Assembly (NCBI GenBank): GCA_029260695.1
Contig: JAJDCT010000379.1
Location: forward strand, 1 to 10,427
DNA from: Phycisphaeraceae bacterium
GTDB lineage: Bacteria; Planctomycetota; Phycisphaerae; Phycisphaerales; Phycisphaeraceae
DNA: 10,427 nucleotides
Reading direction: 5' to 3'
Under the pieces are notes generated by a model. That model worked only from the letters and a program-made list of their open reading frames with translations. It was not told where the DNA came from and did not search any database. The translations under genes and the position numbers were made by a program. This document shows, piece by piece, positions 2,818 to 10,427 of this stretch; within the stretch, counting starts at the first letter, position 1; the number at the start of each line of letters is the position of its first letter.

Positions 2818-3378
2818 ATGATTCCTGAACAGCTAAATCAGACAAGCACTAAACAGGCGGGACGTGACTCGAGTAACCCAGAAGCCGTCGCGCCTGTTCG
2901 GCAGGTCTTGAGGCAGTTGCGTGATGTTGTCGGCCTGCTCGATGTAGACCACTACACCCGCCAGCCGGTTACGACGTTCGGGGGAAGCATCGGTGGACAT
3001 GTCCGTCATTGCCTTGACCACGTCGAGGCCGTCATATCCGGTGCCGATGCTGGCGCGATCGATTATGACCACCGCGAGCGGGGGACGGAAGTCGAGACAG
3101 ATCCCGTGGCAGCGATTGTTGAGATCGATCGGCTAGATTCGTTGTTGGGGATAATGCCCGACGACGCATCGGGTCGCACGGTTGTGGTAAAGATCATGCT
3201 CCGCGGCGATGGGTCGGTCAAAGAGATGTCTTCGACAGTCGGGCGCGAGCTGGCGTTTGTGTTCAGTCACACGATCCACCACGGCGCAATGATCGGCGGG
3301 ATGGTCCGGGCCCTGGGCGGGGATGCGCCAGAAGGGTTCGGCCTGGCACCCTCCACGATCGCGTATCGGAAACAATAA
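2818..3378 (+). CDS. DinB-fold protein, putative metal-dependent enzyme
   Basis: 186 aa, soluble. It has the DinB/YfiT four-helix-bundle pattern: a first long helix (about 25-42), a helix carrying clustered histidines at GGHVRHCLDHVE (H61, H64, H68), and a later helix with SHTIHHGAMIGG (H151, H154, H155). Histidines in these helices form the divalent-metal site of DinB-family proteins, which include metal-dependent thiol transferases and many proteins of unknown function. Residues 1-24 are low complexity and may be disordered. The ATG has only a weak upstream GGTGA close to it, but no internal Met gives a better start before the first conserved helix. The stop is 2 nt before the start of the NRDE/TANGO2 gene, so the two are almost certainly co-translated. 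The fold is confident; the substrate is unknown. Confidence 0.8.
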   Translation: MIPEQLNQTSTKQAGRDSSNPEAVAPVRQVLRQLRDVVGLLDVDHYTRQPVTTFGGSIGGHVRHCLDHVEAVISGADAGAIDYDHRERGTEVETDPVAAIVEIDRLDSLLGIMPDDASGRTVVVKIMLRGDGSVKEMSSTVGRELAFVFSHTIHHGAMIGGMVRALGGDAPEGFGLAPSTIAYRKQ

Positions 3379-3380
3379 GC

Positions 3381-4142
3381 ATGTGTACCGTCACGATCGT
3401 TCCGACGTTCGGCCCGGCGGGCGTGCGCAGTGGTATCCGCGTTGCGTGTAACCGAGACGAGTCACGCGGCAGGCCCGCAGCGTTGCGTCCAATCGAAAAA
3501 ACCTTTAGTCGACATCGCGCCCTGATGCCTGTCGACACCGTATCGGGGGGGACGTGGATCGCGGTAAATGACGCCGGGCTGGTTTTGACTCTGCTGAATC
3601 AGAATCCAGGTGACATGCGGGGAATCACGTTCTTAGACAAGACAAGCCGTGGCGGGATCATCCCAGCACTGCTGTACGCAGACACGTTAACCGAGGCCTG
3701 CGAGCTTGCACGCGATATCGATGTGTCAATATACCCCCCGTTCCGGCTTGTGATGGCGGACACAGCGTACTGCATCGTAATGTCTGGTGATGGAGGCGTG
3801 TCGACCACCCACCGCGAGCCCATCTCTGCCCCCATATTCTTCACTTCATCCGGCTTAGGTGACGCACTGGTCGAAGCACCACGCCGAGAACTATTTCATA
3901 GCTTGTTCGACGATGACAGCAGTGCCTGGGCACAAAACCAGGACGCGTTTCACCGACATCATTGGAAGGATCGGCCGGAGCTATCTGTAGACATGTCACG
4001 CGAGGACGCGACGACGGTGAGCCTGACCCTGGTCGAGCTATCCAGGGATTACACGACGCTTACTTACCACCCCGCGTCGCCAAGTGTTCATGCCGAGGAC
4101 AGCACATTACGGCTGCCCCCAGCCAATCAGGTCAAGCCATGA
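3381..4142 (+). CDS. NRDE (TANGO2) family protein
   Basis: 253 aa beginning MCTVTIVP, with the family signature CNRDE at residues 23-27, a GGTWIAVND segment at about 57-64 and ALLNQN-like strands after it. These features define the NRDE/TANGO2 family. The conserved Cys2 directly after the initiator Met suggests an N-terminal-nucleophile-type fold. Eukaryotic TANGO2/HRG-9 has been linked to haem trafficking and lipid or acyl-CoA metabolism; the role of bacterial members is less settled. The length agrees with the family. The gene follows the DinB-fold gene by 2 nt and ends in ATGA shared with the start of the hydrolase-VTT-ATP-grasp gene, so it is the middle gene of a tight operon. The family call is strong; its function here is unknown. 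Confidence 0.9.
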   Translation: MCTVTIVPTFGPAGVRSGIRVACNRDESRGRPAALRPIEKTFSRHRALMPVDTVSGGTWIAVNDAGLVLTLLNQNPGDMRGITFLDKTSRGGIIPALLYADTLTEACELARDIDVSIYPPFRLVMADTAYCIVMSGDGGVSTTHREPISAPIFFTSSGLGDALVEAPRRELFHSLFDDDSSAWAQNQDAFHRHHWKDRPELSVDMSREDATTVSLTLVELSRDYTTLTYHPASPSVHAEDSTLRLPPANQVKP

Positions 4143-6733
4143 ACCGGGGCAGCGGCAAGCGCCGCCGTTGGCTGGTTATATGGCTAGCGTTGCTAATCGC
4201 TTCGTTCACGGTCCAATTATTTGGGCCCGCCATGCCGGAGCCTAGTGCCAATGACTTGATAGTGAAGGTCGGACCTCAGACATCAGATGGCCCTGCCGCA
4301 GGCGACCCGGTCCGCGTTGCCTACACCGATCTCGGCGACAAGAGCCACCCGGCCCTGATACTCATCCACGGCAGCCCGGGCTCAAAAGAAAATTTTACCC
4401 GCCTCACCCCCCTGCTCACGCCGTACTTCCGTGTGATCTCGGTCGACCTCCCGGGGTTCGGCGCATCGACACGCTCGATCCCAGACTACTCGATCAAGGC
4501 CCACGCACGATACGTCTTAGCGCTGATGGATACGCTGGAAATCGACCGTGCCCAGGTGCTGGGTTTTTCGATGGGGTCGGGGGTTGCGTTACACATGGCC
4601 GAACTGGAACCGGATCGCATCGGGGGCCTGGTCTTCTATGGCGGGATCGGTATCCAGGAAGGCGAAGGGTCGGGTGATTATGGGTTCGAGCACCTCAAGT
4701 ACGCCGTCGGCTACGGCGCGCTTGTTGTGGCACCAGAATTGATACCCCACTTCGGCCTGTTAGGACACCGCTCGTTTCGGCACAGCTTCATCCGGAATTT
4801 CTGGGACAGCGACCAACGACCCTTGCGCACCATCCTTGAGAATCTCCGTCCTGAGCAGACCCCCCTTTTGATCCTCCACGGCCGAGACGACCCGCTGGTT
4901 CCGGCGTGGACCGCGTATCAACACCACCAGATCGTCGGGCACAGCGAACTGGTGATGTTCGATGCCTCGCACTTCATGGTGTTTAGTGATAGTGGCTCAC
5001 GTCGATTGGCCGATGAGGTTATCCCGTTTGTACTGCACCATGCACAGGGCAAGCCCGGTGTCCGACGTACTGCCGATGACACCGCCGACCGTTTCGAGCG
5101 CCCGTCACCTCTACCTTTTGGTTGGGATCTGAGGCGTGGGATGAGCCCGTGGGCGCAGATCGGGATAATCATCGGCGCGTCTTATATCCTTGAAGATCCA
5201 ACGACGGTGTTCACCGGATTGATGATTGCTGAGGGGCAGATCGACCTGTTCGTAGGCATCTTGGCGGTTTTCATCGGCATCTTTACCGGAGACCTGGCGC
5301 TGTACCTGCTTGGCTTTGTCGTTGGACGCCGGGTGTTGCGCTGGGCGCCGCTTGCCAACAGGTTGCCGACGCGGCATGTGGAGCGGTTAGGCGAGTGGTT
5401 CGACCGGCACGGCTGGACGGCGGTACTCGCGTCACGGTTCATCCCAGGCACGCGGCTGCCTCTGTATGTTTCTGCCGGCGCTCTGGGACGCAAGCCCGGC
5501 CGGTTCGTGCTGTGGACCTGCATGGCGGTAGCTATCTGGGCGGTCATGATGATCCTGGCGACGGTCCTCCTGGGCGAAGCGGCCATCACGCTGACCGGTG
5601 TCTTCGGCCAAGGCTGGCTCCCGCTTGTTATCTCCCTTGTGCTGATCCTGGTATTGCTTCGTGTCTTGACGTTGCTATTTACCTCGATCGGGCGCGCCCG
5701 GTTGATGGTGTCGGTCGCCCGGATTTGGCGGTGGGAGTTCTGGCCGGTCTGGCTGTTTTATCTCCCAATCGTCCCTTGGATCGCCTGGCTATCGCTGCGT
5801 CACCGAGGTTTCACTACTGTCACAGCAGTCAACCCCGGCATGCCCGACGGCGGCTTTGTCCACGAATCGAAGATCGACATCCTAAACAAACTCCCCGACG
5901 AATGGATCATCCCCAGCGCGTCGGTCATGACCGCCGACGAACTACGTCATGTGATGCAGGATCGGGGGTGGTCATTCCCGTTGATCCTCAAGCCCGACAC
6001 CGGTGAGCGCGGATACGGGGTTAAAAAAATCGCCTGTGATGCCGACATTGACGAATACTTCGAACAACCGCAACAACTTGTGTTGGCGCAGACCTACGAC
6101 CCCGGGCCGTTGGAGGCCGGCGTGTTCTATTACCGCCTGCCCGGTGAGGCGTCCGGGCACATCTTCTCGATCACCGATAAGGCGTTCCCCATACTTCGGG
6201 GCGACGGCCGACACACCCTCGAGCAATTGATCTACCGGCACAGACGCTACCGCATGCAGGCGAGCACATTCCTCAAACGGTTCGGCGACGAACGTGACCG
6301 GGTATTAGCCAGGGATGAAAAACTGCCGCTGGTCACCGCCGGGAACCACTGCCAGGGGGCGATATTCCTGGACGGCTCGCATTTGATTACCCCGGATCTC
6401 GTAAAAGCTATCGACCGGATCGCCCAGTCCTACGAGGGCTTCTACTTCGGCCGCTGCGACGTGCGCTACAACGATGTGGAACTACTCAAAGCCGGCCGGG
6501 GCTTTGCAATCGTGGAACTCAACGGCGCGACAAGTGAATCCACAAATATCTACGACCCGAACCTTTCGTTATTCAACGCCTACCGAACGCTCTATCGGCA
6601 GTGGTCAATCGCATTCTCTATCGGGGCTACTAACAGGATCAACGGTGCATCGGTCACACCGATCCGTAAGCTGCTCCGCACAGCCAGGTCGCACTACAGG
6701 GGACGGCCCCGATCAAACGCACTGGCAGACTGA
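4139..6733 (+). CDS. Three-domain membrane fusion: alpha/beta hydrolase, DedA/VTT, ATP-grasp ligase
   Basis: 864 aa. A basic N-terminus (KRRR) and hydrophobic helix (11-29) form a signal anchor. Residues about 58-302 are an alpha/beta hydrolase: oxyanion HGSPG at 77-81, nucleophile elbow GFSMGSG with Ser144, acid Asp251 in HGRDDPLVP, and His278. Residues about 338-515 are a DedA/VTT domain with ILEDP (350-354), GDLALY (384-389) and RFIPGTR (433-439) before a long helix; this family moves lipids such as undecaprenyl phosphate or phosphatidylethanolamine. More helices follow to about 552. Residues about 575-830 are an ATP-grasp ligase with the nucleotide loop K618-PDTGERGYGV and metal ligands D774, E793 and N795 (VELNGATSE). 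A basic LSLRHR after the last helix suggests the ligase faces the cytoplasm and the hydrolase the outside. The frame is open upstream to 3962, but the ATGA overlap with the NRDE stop and the clean signal anchor decide for 4139. The combined function is unknown. Confidence 0.92.
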   Translation: MNRGSGKRRRWLVIWLALLIASFTVQLFGPAMPEPSANDLIVKVGPQTSDGPAAGDPVRVAYTDLGDKSHPALILIHGSPGSKENFTRLTPLLTPYFRVISVDLPGFGASTRSIPDYSIKAHARYVLALMDTLEIDRAQVLGFSMGSGVALHMAELEPDRIGGLVFYGGIGIQEGEGSGDYGFEHLKYAVGYGALVVAPELIPHFGLLGHRSFRHSFIRNFWDSDQRPLRTILENLRPEQTPLLILHGRDDPLVPAWTAYQHHQIVGHSELVMFDASHFMVFSDSGSRRLADEVIPFVLHHAQGKPGVRRTADDTADRFERPSPLPFGWDLRRGMSPWAQIGIIIGASYILEDPTTVFTGLMIAEGQIDLFVGILAVFIGIFTGDLALYLLGFVVGRRVLRWAPLANRLPTRHVERLGEWFDRHGWTAVLASRFIPGTRLPLYVSAGALGRKPGRFVLWTCMAVAIWAVMMILATVLLGEAAITLTGVFGQGWLPLVISLVLILVLLRVLTLLFTSIGRARLMVSVARIWRWEFWPVWLFYLPIVPWIAWLSLRHRGFTTVTAVNPGMPDGGFVHESKIDILNKLPDEWIIPSASVMTADELRHVMQDRGWSFPLILKPDTGERGYGVKKIACDADIDEYFEQPQQLVLAQTYDPGPLEAGVFYYRLPGEASGHIFSITDKAFPILRGDGRHTLEQLIYRHRRYRMQASTFLKRFGDERDRVLARDEKLPLVTAGNHCQGAIFLDGSHLITPDLVKAIDRIAQSYEGFYFGRCDVRYNDVELLKAGRGFAIVELNGATSESTNIYDPNLSLFNAYRTLYRQWSIAFSIGATNRINGASVTPIRKLLRTARSHYRGRPRSNALAD

Positions 6734-6755: not shown

Positions 6756-7514
6756 TCACATCCGATCAATATCAGCCGGGTCGATCCTGAGCATCAGGAG
6801 GTCGCCGACACGCCCGACTTGACCTGATATCTGGACCGGGTCGGCGATGAAAGGCAGCATCGTCTCGAGTTGATCACCCGCAATCCCATCGCCGGCTTCA
6901 TTTAGCAGAAGGTAATACGTCCGTTCTCCCTGAGCATCGGTGGTCATGAACATCGGCGGGATGCCGCCATTGATGCACAAAGTAGCGCAGGCCTTGTGCA
7001 CCTTGCCCTCGCCAGGTTTCATCGCCCCGAAGTAACACTTGGGGTCGATGATCTGTCCGCTCAGTGTCGCAGCGCCTAGCGTCTTCGGCGACCATTGGGC
7101 TTGGTGTTGATCCGATTCTTGAACGACACCCCCAACGGGGTCTTCGATGGTTAACAGGGCCGTGTCCCCACCCCGAGAAATCGGATAACCGGTCACACTC
7201 ATCGATCCACCGTCCTCAGGCAGATTCAGGGCAGACCCGCCGATCTTTCCCATCGTGACAAGCAGGATATTCCGCGTGGCTCCGTCATCATCGCCGGGAA
7301 CTATGAGCATGGGGTACGGCTCTGATCGCAGGACACCGCTGAGCGTGACCGTGTTGTTCAGATCCCACGTCCCCGGACCGGGGTCGCTTTGTTGGGACGT
7401 CATCATCACCGATGCGATGATTGCACCGACAGCTAAAAGAGGGACAAGCACAAATAAAAACTGCTTGTAACTTCGAGGCATCGGCAGATAACCGACGTAA
7501 AACTCGTCATTCAT
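6756..7514 (-). CDS. Membrane-anchored protein with Cys/His motif, last gene of the redox operon
   Basis: 252 aa. One transmembrane helix at about 19-40 follows a short N-terminus containing PRSYK, so most of the protein probably faces the periplasm. The body is beta-rich, with two similar strand patterns ('TVTLSGVLRSEPYPML' near 55-70 and 'VQISGQVGRVGDLLML' near 227-242) like small OB-type barrels. Between them lies a striking motif: DPKC160YFGAMKPGEG, then H173-KAC176-x3-C180-x2-GGIPP. The close Cys/His set suggests a metal, haem or Fe-S site, or a disulfide. I recall similar motifs beside Rieske-type membrane proteins but cannot name a family. The start overlaps the preceding stop as ATGAATGA (8 nt), and GGAG lies 9 nt upstream. 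It faces the plus-strand ligase gene tail to tail with only 22 bp between them and no clear terminator. Confidence 0.75.
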   Translation of the reverse strand: MNDEFYVGYLPMPRSYKQFLFVLVPLLAVGAIIASVMMTSQQSDPGPGTWDLNNTVTLSGVLRSEPYPMLIVPGDDDGATRNILLVTMGKIGGSALNLPEDGGSMSVTGYPISRGGDTALLTIEDPVGGVVQESDQHQAQWSPKTLGAATLSGQIIDPKCYFGAMKPGEGKVHKACATLCINGGIPPMFMTTDAQGERTYYLLLNEAGDGIAGDQLETMLPFIADPVQISGQVGRVGDLLMLRIDPADIDRM

Positions 7515-8592
7515 GGTGCGCTTCTCCGATGACTGCTGGCTCGACCGCCGTTCCGGGCTCGTTGGGAGCCGGGTTAATCAGGACCCGCCCGGCCAAGATT
7601 TTCACCCCGTATGTCGGGATCTTCTCGGTGAACGGCGGTGGTGATTGGCCATTGTGTGGGTGATACTGGTAGCCATGCCAAGGGCAGGTGATACAGCCGT
7701 CGACAACCTTGCCCTCACCCAACGGCCCGTTCTGGTGGGCACAAACATTGGCTACCGCGTTGATCTTGCCGTCGTAACGATACACCGCGACCCGCTCACA
7801 GCCCTTAAGACTTACGACCTTGGCCCGGCCGTCCGGGATTTCGTCCACACCGGCGACATCGACCCAGCCGCCCGTCGCTGCGCCCGCCGAACCCTCCAAG
7901 CGTGCTTCTTTGAGCCCGGCGACGATATGCAATGCCACGATCACCAACGCACTGCCCCCCAGAAACACCGAATACACCGGACTAACACTGTCTTGAAGGA
8001 AACCCAACGTCACATGCATAATCAACAGCCCGTAAGCCACATACACAAGCGTGTGCAGGTTTTTCCAGATACGTGGCGACAGGTTCTTCAGCCAGAAATC
8101 GTGGCTGGTCGCCGCCATCAGAAACAGGATGCCCAGCGCCGCAACGCCCATCGGCTGGAATGGAAACCCGGCGAGCCAACCCTGCCACCGCTGCCCCTCG
8201 CCGGGGAGGTAGTTGGCGTTACTTGTAAAGACCGAAACGATCGGGTTGATCACCCCAAAGCCGTGGTACCAGAAGATCGCGAGTACGGCATGGATGAAGG
8301 CGACAAGGAACATCGTCACGCCCATGTGCCTGCGGTTGTATAGCAAAGGGCTGAACCTGGGTGACAGCCTGGCAAGCGGGCCGATCGCCAGGATAAGGGT
8401 CAACAGCGTGATGGCACAGGTGCTGGTTGCACGCATCAGGAGTGTGACCGGGTGTGCCGCCGCGTCTCCGGGCCAAAGCGACATCCCCACGCCGACGAAT
8501 ACGCCAAGATACGCCACAACGCCCACAGCAAGCAACGCATCGTAGATACGCTTGTGCCGGCTCCACTGTACAGCCTGGTAGGAAACGCTCAT
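7507..8592 (-). CDS. Ferric-reductase-like haem membrane domain fused to a Rieske domain
   Basis: 361 aa. Five to six hydrophobic helices lie at about 18-40, 50-73, 90-110, 147-162, 178-200 and 206-225. The histidines H89, H101, H180 and H193 sit in helices as expected for b-haem ligands of the ferric-reductase/MsrQ transmembrane superfamily. No FAD/NAD(P)H-binding half follows, unlike full ferric reductases and NOX enzymes. Instead residues about 242-342 form a Rieske domain with C284-A-H286 and C303-P-W-H306, the boxes again 16 residues apart. This suggests electron transfer between a [2Fe-2S] cluster and membrane haem. If both termini are cytoplasmic, the Rieske domain would be on the inner side, but topology is not certain. 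A strong GGAGGT lies 6 nt before the ATG, which overlaps the 50-aa gene as ATGA. It is third in a four-gene coupled operon. Confidence 0.9.
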   Translation of the reverse strand: MSVSYQAVQWSRHKRIYDALLAVGVVAYLGVFVGVGMSLWPGDAAAHPVTLLMRATSTCAITLLTLILAIGPLARLSPRFSPLLYNRRHMGVTMFLVAFIHAVLAIFWYHGFGVINPIVSVFTSNANYLPGEGQRWQGWLAGFPFQPMGVAALGILFLMAATSHDFWLKNLSPRIWKNLHTLVYVAYGLLIMHVTLGFLQDSVSPVYSVFLGGSALVIVALHIVAGLKEARLEGSAGAATGGWVDVAGVDEIPDGRAKVVSLKGCERVAVYRYDGKINAVANVCAHQNGPLGEGKVVDGCITCPWHGYQYHPHNGQSPPPFTEKIPTYGVKILAGRVLINPAPNEPGTAVEPAVIGEAHHE

Positions 8593-9037: not shown

Positions 9038-10427
9038 CTATTCCACCGCACTATGACATGATAAGTAATCCGGGACGCTACCCGGGCCCATATACTTACT
9101 CAGAACCGGCCTGGGAATATCCAGGATGTCGAAGAGCATCAGCCCGTCAAGGACATTGCCAAATTCCGGGTCGATGTTCAAACCCAGCAGTTTGCCGTTG
9201 AGTTTGAGGTATTGCCTAAGCAGTACGGGCATCGGTTTGCCGTCGGCTTCCAGGTCAGCCAGCAGCTCGTTGACCCCGTTCACGTCACTAACCACGGTCG
9301 AAAATTCCGCGGGATCCCAATCCACATGCGGGCGCTGTCGTGGCGGGTTCTTAGGTTTCAACAGCCCGGAAAGCTGTGGCAGCGAACGGTGGGTCTGCAG
9401 GAAACTCATCAACAACTGCTTGGACATCGAGGTGTATTCCGCGCTGATGCTGACGGTGCCAAACAGGTGCCGATAGCGCATATTCTTAGCGACGAACCGA
9501 CCAATCCCCTGCCACAGCAACATAAGAGGCGAAAAACGCCGCTGGTGATCAGGGTGGATAAAAGAACGACCCAATTCGATCGCCGGACCAATCTGTTCGA
9601 GCAGTCGCCGCTTAAACCGGAAGAGTGTTGATGTATACAAACCATCGACGCCGAGCGTGGGGAGGATACGATCCGTCAGACCCAGCCTATACGCACCAAC
9701 CACACGTGCCTGATCCCTGTCCCAGACAACAAGGTGCAGGTAATGCTTGTCGAATCGGTCCAGGTCAGTAGACCTACCGGTACCTTCCCCGACCTTTCTG
9801 AACGTGAGTTCCCGGAGTCTTCCGATCTCAAGCAGCACGGCAGGGAGTTGCTCGGCTGTTCCGATGACGACGTCCATACCGCCGCTTGATAGTAACTGTT
9901 GATCTTCGGGCAGTGAAGCGACCTCATCGATCATCGCTTCCACAGGCTGGGGCCCCGCTATCGGTTCACCCCGGGCCGCCTCTTGCGCAAGGGCCAACCT
10001 CCGTTCGCGCTCCACCCTTGCGTCCCGAGATTTCAGGATGTAGGTACGGACACGCAGGTAGCTGGTAAGGGATTCCGCGTCAGCGAACGACGCCGTGCGC
10101 ATCGGTGGAATGACGCTGCCGATCCGCAGCCGGAAAGTTTGGCCACGCTTTCTCAGTGTCTCGCGTATCAGCATCGTGGTTCGGACACGCGGATGGATCA
10201 TCCCGGCGACCTGAAACAGCGCACTGTTTCGGCCGTAAAAGAACGCCGGGACGACAGACGCCCCGGTGCGTTTGACGATCTTGGCAACCGTCTTGGACCA
10301 CGCAGGATCGGCAACCGTGCGCCGGCGTAAGTTCAGATGTGAAACCTCCCCGGCGGGGAAGACACCCAGCACGCCGCCGCGCGCTACCCAGTCCGTTGCC
10401 TCACGCATCGACGCCAGGTTCCGCCTC
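9038..10427 (-). CDS. Lysophospholipid acyltransferase fused to OlsB/hemolysin-like GNAT acyltransferase (N-terminus missing)
   Basis: At least 462 codons are visible. The frame is open through the right edge (RRNLAS before the first visible Met at 10408), so the true start lies outside. Numbering from that Met, residues 1-110 are the end of a PlsC-like acyltransferase: GGVLGVFPAGEVSH (11-24) matches the FPEGTRS substrate-binding block, and VVPAFFYGR (52-60) the last conserved block. The catalytic HX4D must lie upstream of the window. After a charged linker (about 115-170), residues about 180-330 form a GNAT-like domain of the OlsB type, with VVGAYRLG (236-243) and ELGRSFIHPDHQRR (278-291). 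The tail (LLRQYLKLNGKLLGLNIDPEFGNVLDGLM) is typical of these proteins. OlsA/OlsB-type pairs acylate an amino acid and then the lyso-lipid in ornithine-lipid synthesis. That role is likely here, but another aminolipid is possible. Confidence 0.88.
   Translation of the reverse strand, partial: RRNLASMREATDWVARGGVLGVFPAGEVSHLNLRRRTVADPAWSKTVAKIVKRTGASVVPAFFYGRNSALFQVAGMIHPRVRTTMLIRETLRKRGQTFRLRIGSVIPPMRTASFADAESLTSYLRVRTYILKSRDARVERERRLALAQEAARGEPIAGPQPVEAMIDEVASLPEDQQLLSSGGMDVVIGTAEQLPAVLLEIGRLRELTFRKVGEGTGRSTDLDRFDKHYLHLVVWDRDQARVVGAYRLGLTDRILPTLGVDGLYTSTLFRFKRRLLEQIGPAIELGRSFIHPDHQRRFSPLMLLWQGIGRFVAKNMRYRHLFGTVSISAEYTSMSKQLLMSFLQTHRSLPQLSGLLKPKNPPRQRPHVDWDPAEFSTVVSDVNGVNELLADLEADGKPMPVLLRQYLKLNGKLLGLNIDPEFGNVLDGLMLFDILDIPRPVLSKYMGPGSVPDYLSCHSAVE

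Follow-up and report, generated by a model that had tools for sequence, protein, structure and literature searches.

The window analyzed here is the whole stretch of 10,427 nucleotides from a Phycisphaeraceae bacterium (contig JAJDCT010000379.1 of assembly GCA_029260695.1), and it encodes a membrane protein of 864 amino acids (4139..6733, forward strand) that combines in one open reading frame (ORF) a transmembrane (TM) anchor, an alpha/beta hydrolase, a VTT domain, a membrane segment and an ATP-grasp ligase. This three-domain protein is real and conserved. Its placement in aminolipid metabolism has good support, and we favor, at slightly better than an even chance, a role as a membrane machine for the remodeling of N-acyl amino-acid lipids, among which ornithine lipids (OLs) are the likeliest. 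The chemistry that ligase, VTT domain and hydrolase would perform on the lipid, and with it the exact reaction, is what we infer. An earlier note, made from the DNA letters alone, had proposed a lipid or an envelope molecule as the target; the lipid is the part that stands, and the genomic context points to N-acyl amino-acid (ornithine-type) lipids.

Ols-type enzymes alongside the ligase gene

The clue to a role in aminolipid metabolism is the presence of Ols-type enzymes in the same genomes, in many of them close to the ligase gene. In aminolipid synthesis the N-acyltransferase domain is PF13444 (PMC11631085), and OlsH provides an unrelated planctomycete route to lyso-ornithine lipid (PMC12493201). 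We collected 43 ligase-positive Planctomycetota genomes, 22 from a search of 61 genomes and 21 more from a draw of 294, in which the ligase was present in 32 (10 of the 42 matches in this draw were VTT-only and were dropped, and matches weaker than E 1e-20 were scored as absent). PF13444 (OlsB/OlsF-type) was present in 34 of the 43, and in 28 of these 34, belonging to seven families, it lay within 5 kb of the ligase match. With one copy in a genome of 4 Mb such adjacency is expected by chance in ca. 0.3% of genomes, so the linkage is above chance. Eight of the nine genomes without PF13444 carry an OlsH-like GH3 enzyme, seven of them with E values of 1e-107 or lower and the eighth split over two contigs; it was found within 2 kb of the ligase in three of the eight and was distant or on another contig in five. 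A weak OlsH match was also detected in two of the 34 genomes with PF13444. Within the draw of 294, one or the other enzyme was found in 31/32 ligase-positive vs. 47/262 ligase-negative genomes (odds ratio 142, Fisher p 2e-19, relatedness ignored), and PF13444 alone in 24/32 vs. 26/262.

The same association was seen in gene order. Eighty named loci were fetched, and 75 were counted after leaving out five without a ligase ORF above 100 bits; the named loci coincide in part with the genomes just described (e.g., L037/G060, L063/G018, L052/G041) and the two sets of counts are not independent. An Ols-type N-acyl enzyme was found on the fetched stretches of 23/75 loci, with Acidobacteria and Verrucomicrobia titles included. 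In L144, L147, L149 and L150, OlsB-like and OlsA-like genes stand directly before the three-domain gene on the same strand. NCBIfam supports the OlsA-like identity in all four (below cut-off), and the OlsB-like one is supported by NCBIfam in L144 and L147, by Pfam in L149 and, for L150, by PF13444 in G331. In L168 the order is OlsI-like gene, OlsH-like gene, three-domain gene, and the longest frames overlap by 4 bp; this OlsI-like alpha/beta hydrolase is 45% identical to the neighbor of OlsH in G046. The row in L162 is OlsH-like, DinB, TANGO2 and three-domain gene. Gene orders of L164, L165 and L169 were left out, the picking of ORFs by longest frame being unreliable in high-GC stretches. In the window itself, an OlsF-like aminolipid synthase (9038..10408, reverse strand) is cut by the contig end, where its N-terminal part is missing, and matches NF052615 at E 4e-89 (profile positions 148–569 of 570) and PF13444 at E 1.6e-24. 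Outside Planctomycetota we drew 35 ligase-positive genomes from the 37 named loci titled as other phyla (L091 and L103 left out), and PF13444 was present in 32 of them, in one (G362) only at E 1e-6. Taken from gene content and gene order, a link of the three-domain protein to aminolipid metabolism is well supported.

Domains, active sites and topology

That a single polypeptide joins hydrolase, VTT and ATP-grasp domains had been claimed in the earlier note, and Pfam, alignment and fold all bear this out, with the domains intact. The protein begins with TM1, the hydrolase anchor (residues 5–28, 4151..4222, a helix in the structure model, supported by hydropathy and charge), followed by the alpha/beta hydrolase (residues 40–303, 4256..5047), which belongs to its superfamily by fold and by the Ser-Asp-His triad S144/D251/H278 (Pfam, alignment and structure comparison). 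The VTT/DedA domain (residues 337–513, 5147..5677) scores 57.3 with PF09335 against a gathering score of 33.9, and is marked by E352-D353, D385, the RFIPGTR motif at 433–439, its conservation and three strong hydrophobic stretches. A membrane-dipping segment, EFWPxWLFYLPxxPW (5726..5800), is apparent in the alignments ahead of the ligase, and the model has a helix at 537–554. The last domain is the ligase (residues 575–830, 5861..6628), assigned by alignment and fold comparison. A Pfam scan of the whole protein at E 0.01 returned alpha/beta-hydrolase-type and VTT models only, and the ligase belongs to the ATP-grasp superfamily by its fold, its ATP-binding Lys (K618) and its Mg-binding Asp, Glu and Asn (D774, E793 and N795). 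It was folded alone, since fold searches with the whole model returned mainly alpha/beta hydrolases. Compared in this way with solved structures, its nearest relatives are cyanophycin synthetase, LysX/ArgX, GshF and RimK.

Conservation was measured over the best 120 of 1422 matches among 8000 scored candidates, window protein included, which samples the closer members of the family; the hydrolase columns were counted in the 53 rows of at least 780 amino acids. The key residues are kept: the ligase residues K618, D774, E793 and N795 in 120/120 rows, where the site showed no decay, the hydrolase triad in 53/53, and R433, P436, G437, R439, E352, D353 and D385 of the VTT domain in 120/120. A search with the ligase only gave 5006 matches among 6825 candidates. 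We also observed that 120/120 rows share an Asp (D864 column) at the C-terminus or close to it; it was usually the final residue in the rows inspected, and P0166 extends beyond it. It looks as if the chain end of these ATP-grasp relatives were fixed or bound.

Sidedness was predicted from loop charge (the positive-inside rule) and hydropathy, and the structure model was kept out of this inference. Averaged over the 53 rows, the main hydrophobic stretches are at 19–23, 365–388, 462–482 and 490–511; short stretches at 198–200 (within the hydrolase), 350–354 and 543–544 also exceed the threshold, and the TM1 peak (1.44) is little higher than the one at 198–200 (1.36). The mean number of Lys plus Arg falls from 2.5 ahead of TM1 to 0.85 behind it, and the loops 398–435, 488–494 and 512–536 average 7.5, 0.1 and 5.7. 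A TM1-like stretch was found in 44/53 rows; in 40 of these, the N-side carried more positive charge. Because of these charges, the hydrolase is predicted outside and the ligase inside, on opposite sides of the membrane as had been proposed, with the positive N-terminus of TM1 inside. One homologue, P0009, has a TANGO2 domain (Cys2 kept) ahead of TM1 and then hydrolase, VTT and ATP-grasp in one frame of 1121 residues. Such a fusion would fit a cytoplasmic N-terminus, although it could alternatively be a sequencing error that joined two overlapping genes.

Architectures and distribution of the family

The triple architecture is confirmed, yet it is one of several forms. Among the 75 named loci, VTT plus ligase was the most frequent (45), followed by hydrolase plus VTT plus ligase (15) and by the ligase only (13); the remaining two loci have hydrolase and ligase, VTT not having been found there by a single-sequence search. 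With the triple form being one of several, hydrolase and VTT are add-ons to a widespread membrane-bound ligase. The alignments show the EFWPxWLFYLPxxPW segment in stand-alone ligases too, as would be expected for a lipid substrate. We also considered the pairing of a stand-alone ligase with a separate VTT gene, and dropped it because the 13 stretches concerned showed no such gene.

Record titles among the named loci include Planctomycetota, Acidobacteria, Verrucomicrobia, Leptospiraceae and a Spirochaetia, with three further titles of Proteobacteria, Alphaproteobacteria and Oligoflexia; most are metagenome-assembled genomes, so that labels can err. The relative P0021 carries the title Algisphaera agarilytica. 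In a Verrucomicrobia-centered draw, the ligase matches of G548, G508, G502, G412 and G537 lie inside open frames of 868–895 amino acids, which suggests the three-domain form there too. One scan of viral contigs gave no relative.

Other neighboring genes

The three-domain gene is the last of a compact row in the window. A DinB-like gene with conserved His (2818..3378, forward strand; Pfam match below cut-off) ends 2 bp before a gene for a TANGO2/NRDE-type putative Cys-Ntn hydrolase (3381..4142, forward strand; PF05742), which in turn overlaps the three-domain gene by 4 bp. On the reverse strand follow a 252-residue protein with an invariant Cys/His motif (6756..7514; no Pfam model) and, overlapping it, a protein with a ferric-reductase-like membrane domain and a Rieske domain by Pfam (7507..8592), both of them recurrent neighbors. 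Also on this strand, 377–2026 encodes a single protein that fuses Rieske and glutamate-synthase-type flavin domains (PF00355 and PF01645).

A census within seven genes of the ligase gene in the 75 loci showed that 43 have a TANGO2-type gene, 40 a DinB-like gene and 56 one or both; less often there were Rieske/ferric-reductase (19), Cys/His-family (18) and Ols-type (16) genes, then DoxX (12), YHS (11) and DUF1223 (7). The census profiles also match the DinB-like, TANGO2, Cys/His-family, Rieske/ferric-reductase and OlsF-like genes of the window. The TANGO2-type proteins keep the Cys2 and R25-D26-E27 columns in 44/44; 29 of these 44 frames begin with MCT, the remainder being called from starts farther upstream. 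PF05742 detects TANGO2 in 29/43 ligase-positive Planctomycetota genomes, an undercount since it misses the copy of G058 (L162) that is matched by our own profile. A six-row bacterial profile matches human TANGO2 at E 0.002 over part of the chain only. Like the human protein (8sv7, 9bwa), the co-encoded one has Cys2 and the NRDE motif, and it is separate from the main polypeptide except in P0009. Human TANGO2 has been proposed as a Cys-Ntn hydrolase of fatty-acid derivatives (PMC13044924). In the DinB-like proteins, H64, H68, H151, H154 and H155 are present in 41/41 rows, and no match was found among solved structures at E 1. The 252-residue family has K159-C160, G163, M165, P167-G168, H173, C176-A177, C180, G184 and P186-P187 invariant in 19/19 rows, and looks like a protein with a metal or haem site that belongs to a conserved redox pair.

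Proposed mechanism and alternatives

In the mechanism that we propose, the lipid would first be made by OlsF (or OlsBA, or OlsH with OlsI) on the inner leaflet. The ATP-grasp domain, which the Trp/Pro-rich segment would keep at the membrane, would then phosphorylate the free alpha-carboxylate of the lipid and couple it to an amino acid or a comparable small molecule through the amine of the latter, so that the head group becomes lipodipeptide-like. The VTT domain would carry the product to the outer leaflet, where the anchored hydrolase would act on it, either by cleaving an ester or by shifting an acyl chain. Inside, the co-encoded TANGO2-type protein may cleave the new amide and so serve editing or recycling. 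A role after OL synthesis is the simplest one, because the genes for the synthesis are already present. OLs retain a free alpha-carboxylate, and cyanophycin synthetase, RimK, LysX and GshF phosphorylate the carboxylate of the larger substrate and join to it the amine of an amino acid; since these are the nearest relatives by fold, activation of the lipid carboxylate would be the favored chemistry. The earlier note had drawn a two-sided cycle in which the ligase attaches a carboxylate or amino-acid group to an amine. Its topology and its lipid target agree with our results; for the ligase step, we would rather have the lipid supply the carboxylate. An ATP-grasp ligase of this kind would be a natural candidate for making amides of the taurine-ornithine or serine-glycine type, both known head groups (PMC12493201).

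A number of observations weigh against this proposal. Thirteen of the 75 named loci lack the VTT domain, and the fetched stretches of these ligase-only loci carry no VTT gene elsewhere either; the hydrolase is absent from 58 of the 75. The distribution is patchy: 22/61 genomes of one search had the ligase, that of the window included, and none of five same-genus genomes searched. The window is an entire contig of 10.4 kb from an assembly of 492 contigs that is 77% complete, and may be accessory DNA or misbinned. The ninth genome without PF13444, G286 (an 84%-complete assembly), has no convincing OlsH; OlsH alone is mildly enriched (8/32 vs. 27/262, p 0.04), and the relatedness of the genomes inflates all p-values. 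The partner enzymes score below the NCBIfam cut-offs (OlsF 299.7 against 620, OlsB 151 against 350, OlsA 148 against 300 and OlsH 393 against 620), so that the amino acid of their lipid may be other than ornithine. Of the three other-phyla genomes without PF13444, one gave a partial and weak match to OlsH and the others gave none; a convincing OlsH was found neither in these nor in G362. In the Verrucomicrobia-centered draw the link is weaker, with PF13444 in 18/21 ligase-positive vs. 98/173 ligase-negative genomes (p 0.01) and within 5 kb of the ligase in only 4/18, counted by eye. The Ols link is thus tight in Planctomycetota; outside this phylum, where PF13444 is widespread in any case, it is looser. 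Lastly, the identity of the fused hydrolase to OlsI-like neighbors is only 21% (E 3e-7) for the one in L166 and 22% for the one in L168.

The alternative that survives best, which we still regard as rather unlikely, keeps the same lipid pathway and makes the outside alpha/beta domain an OlsI-like acyltransferase that would add an acyl chain to the outer-leaflet aminolipid or take one away. The triad conserved in every long row would agree with it, as would the fact that OlsI, with its alpha/beta-hydrolase fold, performs the O-acyl step of OL synthesis (PMC12493201). We dropped the idea of an identity of the fused hydrolase with OlsI itself, given the low sequence identity and the existence of separate OlsI-like genes. 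It is improbable that the substrate is instead a polyprenyl-phosphate carrier or envelope glycan, with VTT recycling undecaprenyl phosphate as UptA does, the ligase adding an amino acid to an envelope precursor, and the Ols genes as mere envelope neighbors. Undecaprenyl phosphate translocases include DedA proteins. Translocases of this carrier are the subject of PMC9876793, and UptA models are the VTT-type ones that score in an NCBIfam scan, but the window protein, at 53 bits, stays far below the cut-off of 250 for NF052604; moreover, the steady pairing with the unrelated OlsB/OlsF-type and OlsH routes would be left unexplained. We give little chance to an ATP-grasp domain that is itself an N-acyl amino-acid synthetase, turning a 3-hydroxy fatty acid through an acyl phosphate into an acyl amino acid as an extra lyso-aminolipid route. 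Acyl-histidine is made by an ATP-grasp route (PMC11631085) and OlsH is likewise ATP-dependent (PMC12493201), yet the ligase adjoins OlsB-OlsA-like or OlsI-OlsH-like pairs that already cover that step, and 42 of the 43 ligase-positive Planctomycetota genomes hold another N-acyl enzyme. Least probable of all is a cassette for redox, haem or thiol chemistry, in which the ligase would make a peptide-like cofactor for the DinB-like, TANGO2 and Rieske/ferric-reductase proteins: DinB, TANGO2, Rieske-reductase, YHS and DoxX do recur, the first two each in more of the 75 loci than Ols genes, and the ligase fold also resembles bifunctional glutathione synthetase, but the Ols link, the membrane segment, the fused VTT and the outside hydrolase would remain without explanation, and PF05742 finds TANGO2 in only part of the ligase-positive genomes, undercount as this is.

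Comparison with known systems

For the lipid-remodeling machine that we favor, a close likeness is MprF, an aminoacyl-phosphatidylglycerol synthase and flippase, taken with AcvB/LpiA, where an inside enzyme decorates a lipid head with an amino group and there are likewise a fused lipid-moving membrane domain and an outside hydrolase. The MprF synthase is tRNA-dependent. The window protein has an ATP-grasp enzyme, a VTT domain in place of the MprF flippase and a hydrolase in the same chain, and the proposed lipid is an aminolipid and not phosphatidylglycerol; the Pfam scan at E 0.01 recognized neither the synthase nor the flippase domain of MprF in it. The genes acvB and lpiA form one operon and their proteins interact, a lipid synthase being paired with a periplasmic hydrolase (PMC13197417). 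The best reading of this likeness would be an MprF-like cycle assembled from unrelated parts. The OlsBA, OlsF and OlsH-OlsI pathways resemble our case in that such genes neighbor the three-domain gene and OlsI has an alpha/beta-hydrolase fold, but the three-domain protein would act after or beside them, and the portions available of PMC12493201 and PMC11631085 name no ATP-grasp ligase or VTT domain in OL pathways.

The single domains also depart from their relatives. The ligase is 13–18% identical to cyanophycin synthetase over the rows of the latter, is preceded by a membrane segment and is without the Mur-ligase half that cyanophycin synthetase has; at 24.1 bits with TIGR02068, it stays far below the cut-off of 850. 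The VTT domain shares PF09335, with the RFxPGxR and acidic motifs, with UptA, PetA, TMEM41B and VMP1, but it is fused to two enzymes. Of these DedA relatives, VMP1 and TMEM41B are called scramblases, and DedA-MprF fusions have been reported (PMC11980842). The model of residues 4–304, TM helix included, aligns with the membrane-anchored phospholipase A 6i8w, which we take to be PlaF, at 20% identity; PlaF is a stand-alone protein. A published function or study of the three-domain protein was not found in the open-licence literature, judged mostly by its listings, an absence that is no proof.

We put forward more tentatively a wider picture, in which several phyla would possess an undescribed class of membrane lipid: an ATP-grasp ligase would extend the carboxylate of ornithine-type lipids, yielding a lipodipeptide or a similar amide, and in some lineages one polypeptide would make the head group inside, carry the lipid across and process it outside. 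If true, aminolipids would gain their own MprF-like system to modify and move them, built from other domains, and a head-group extension would have a gene assigned to it. The bacterial TANGO2-like and DinB-like proteins, placed beside aminolipid genes, would thereby have a lead on their roles.

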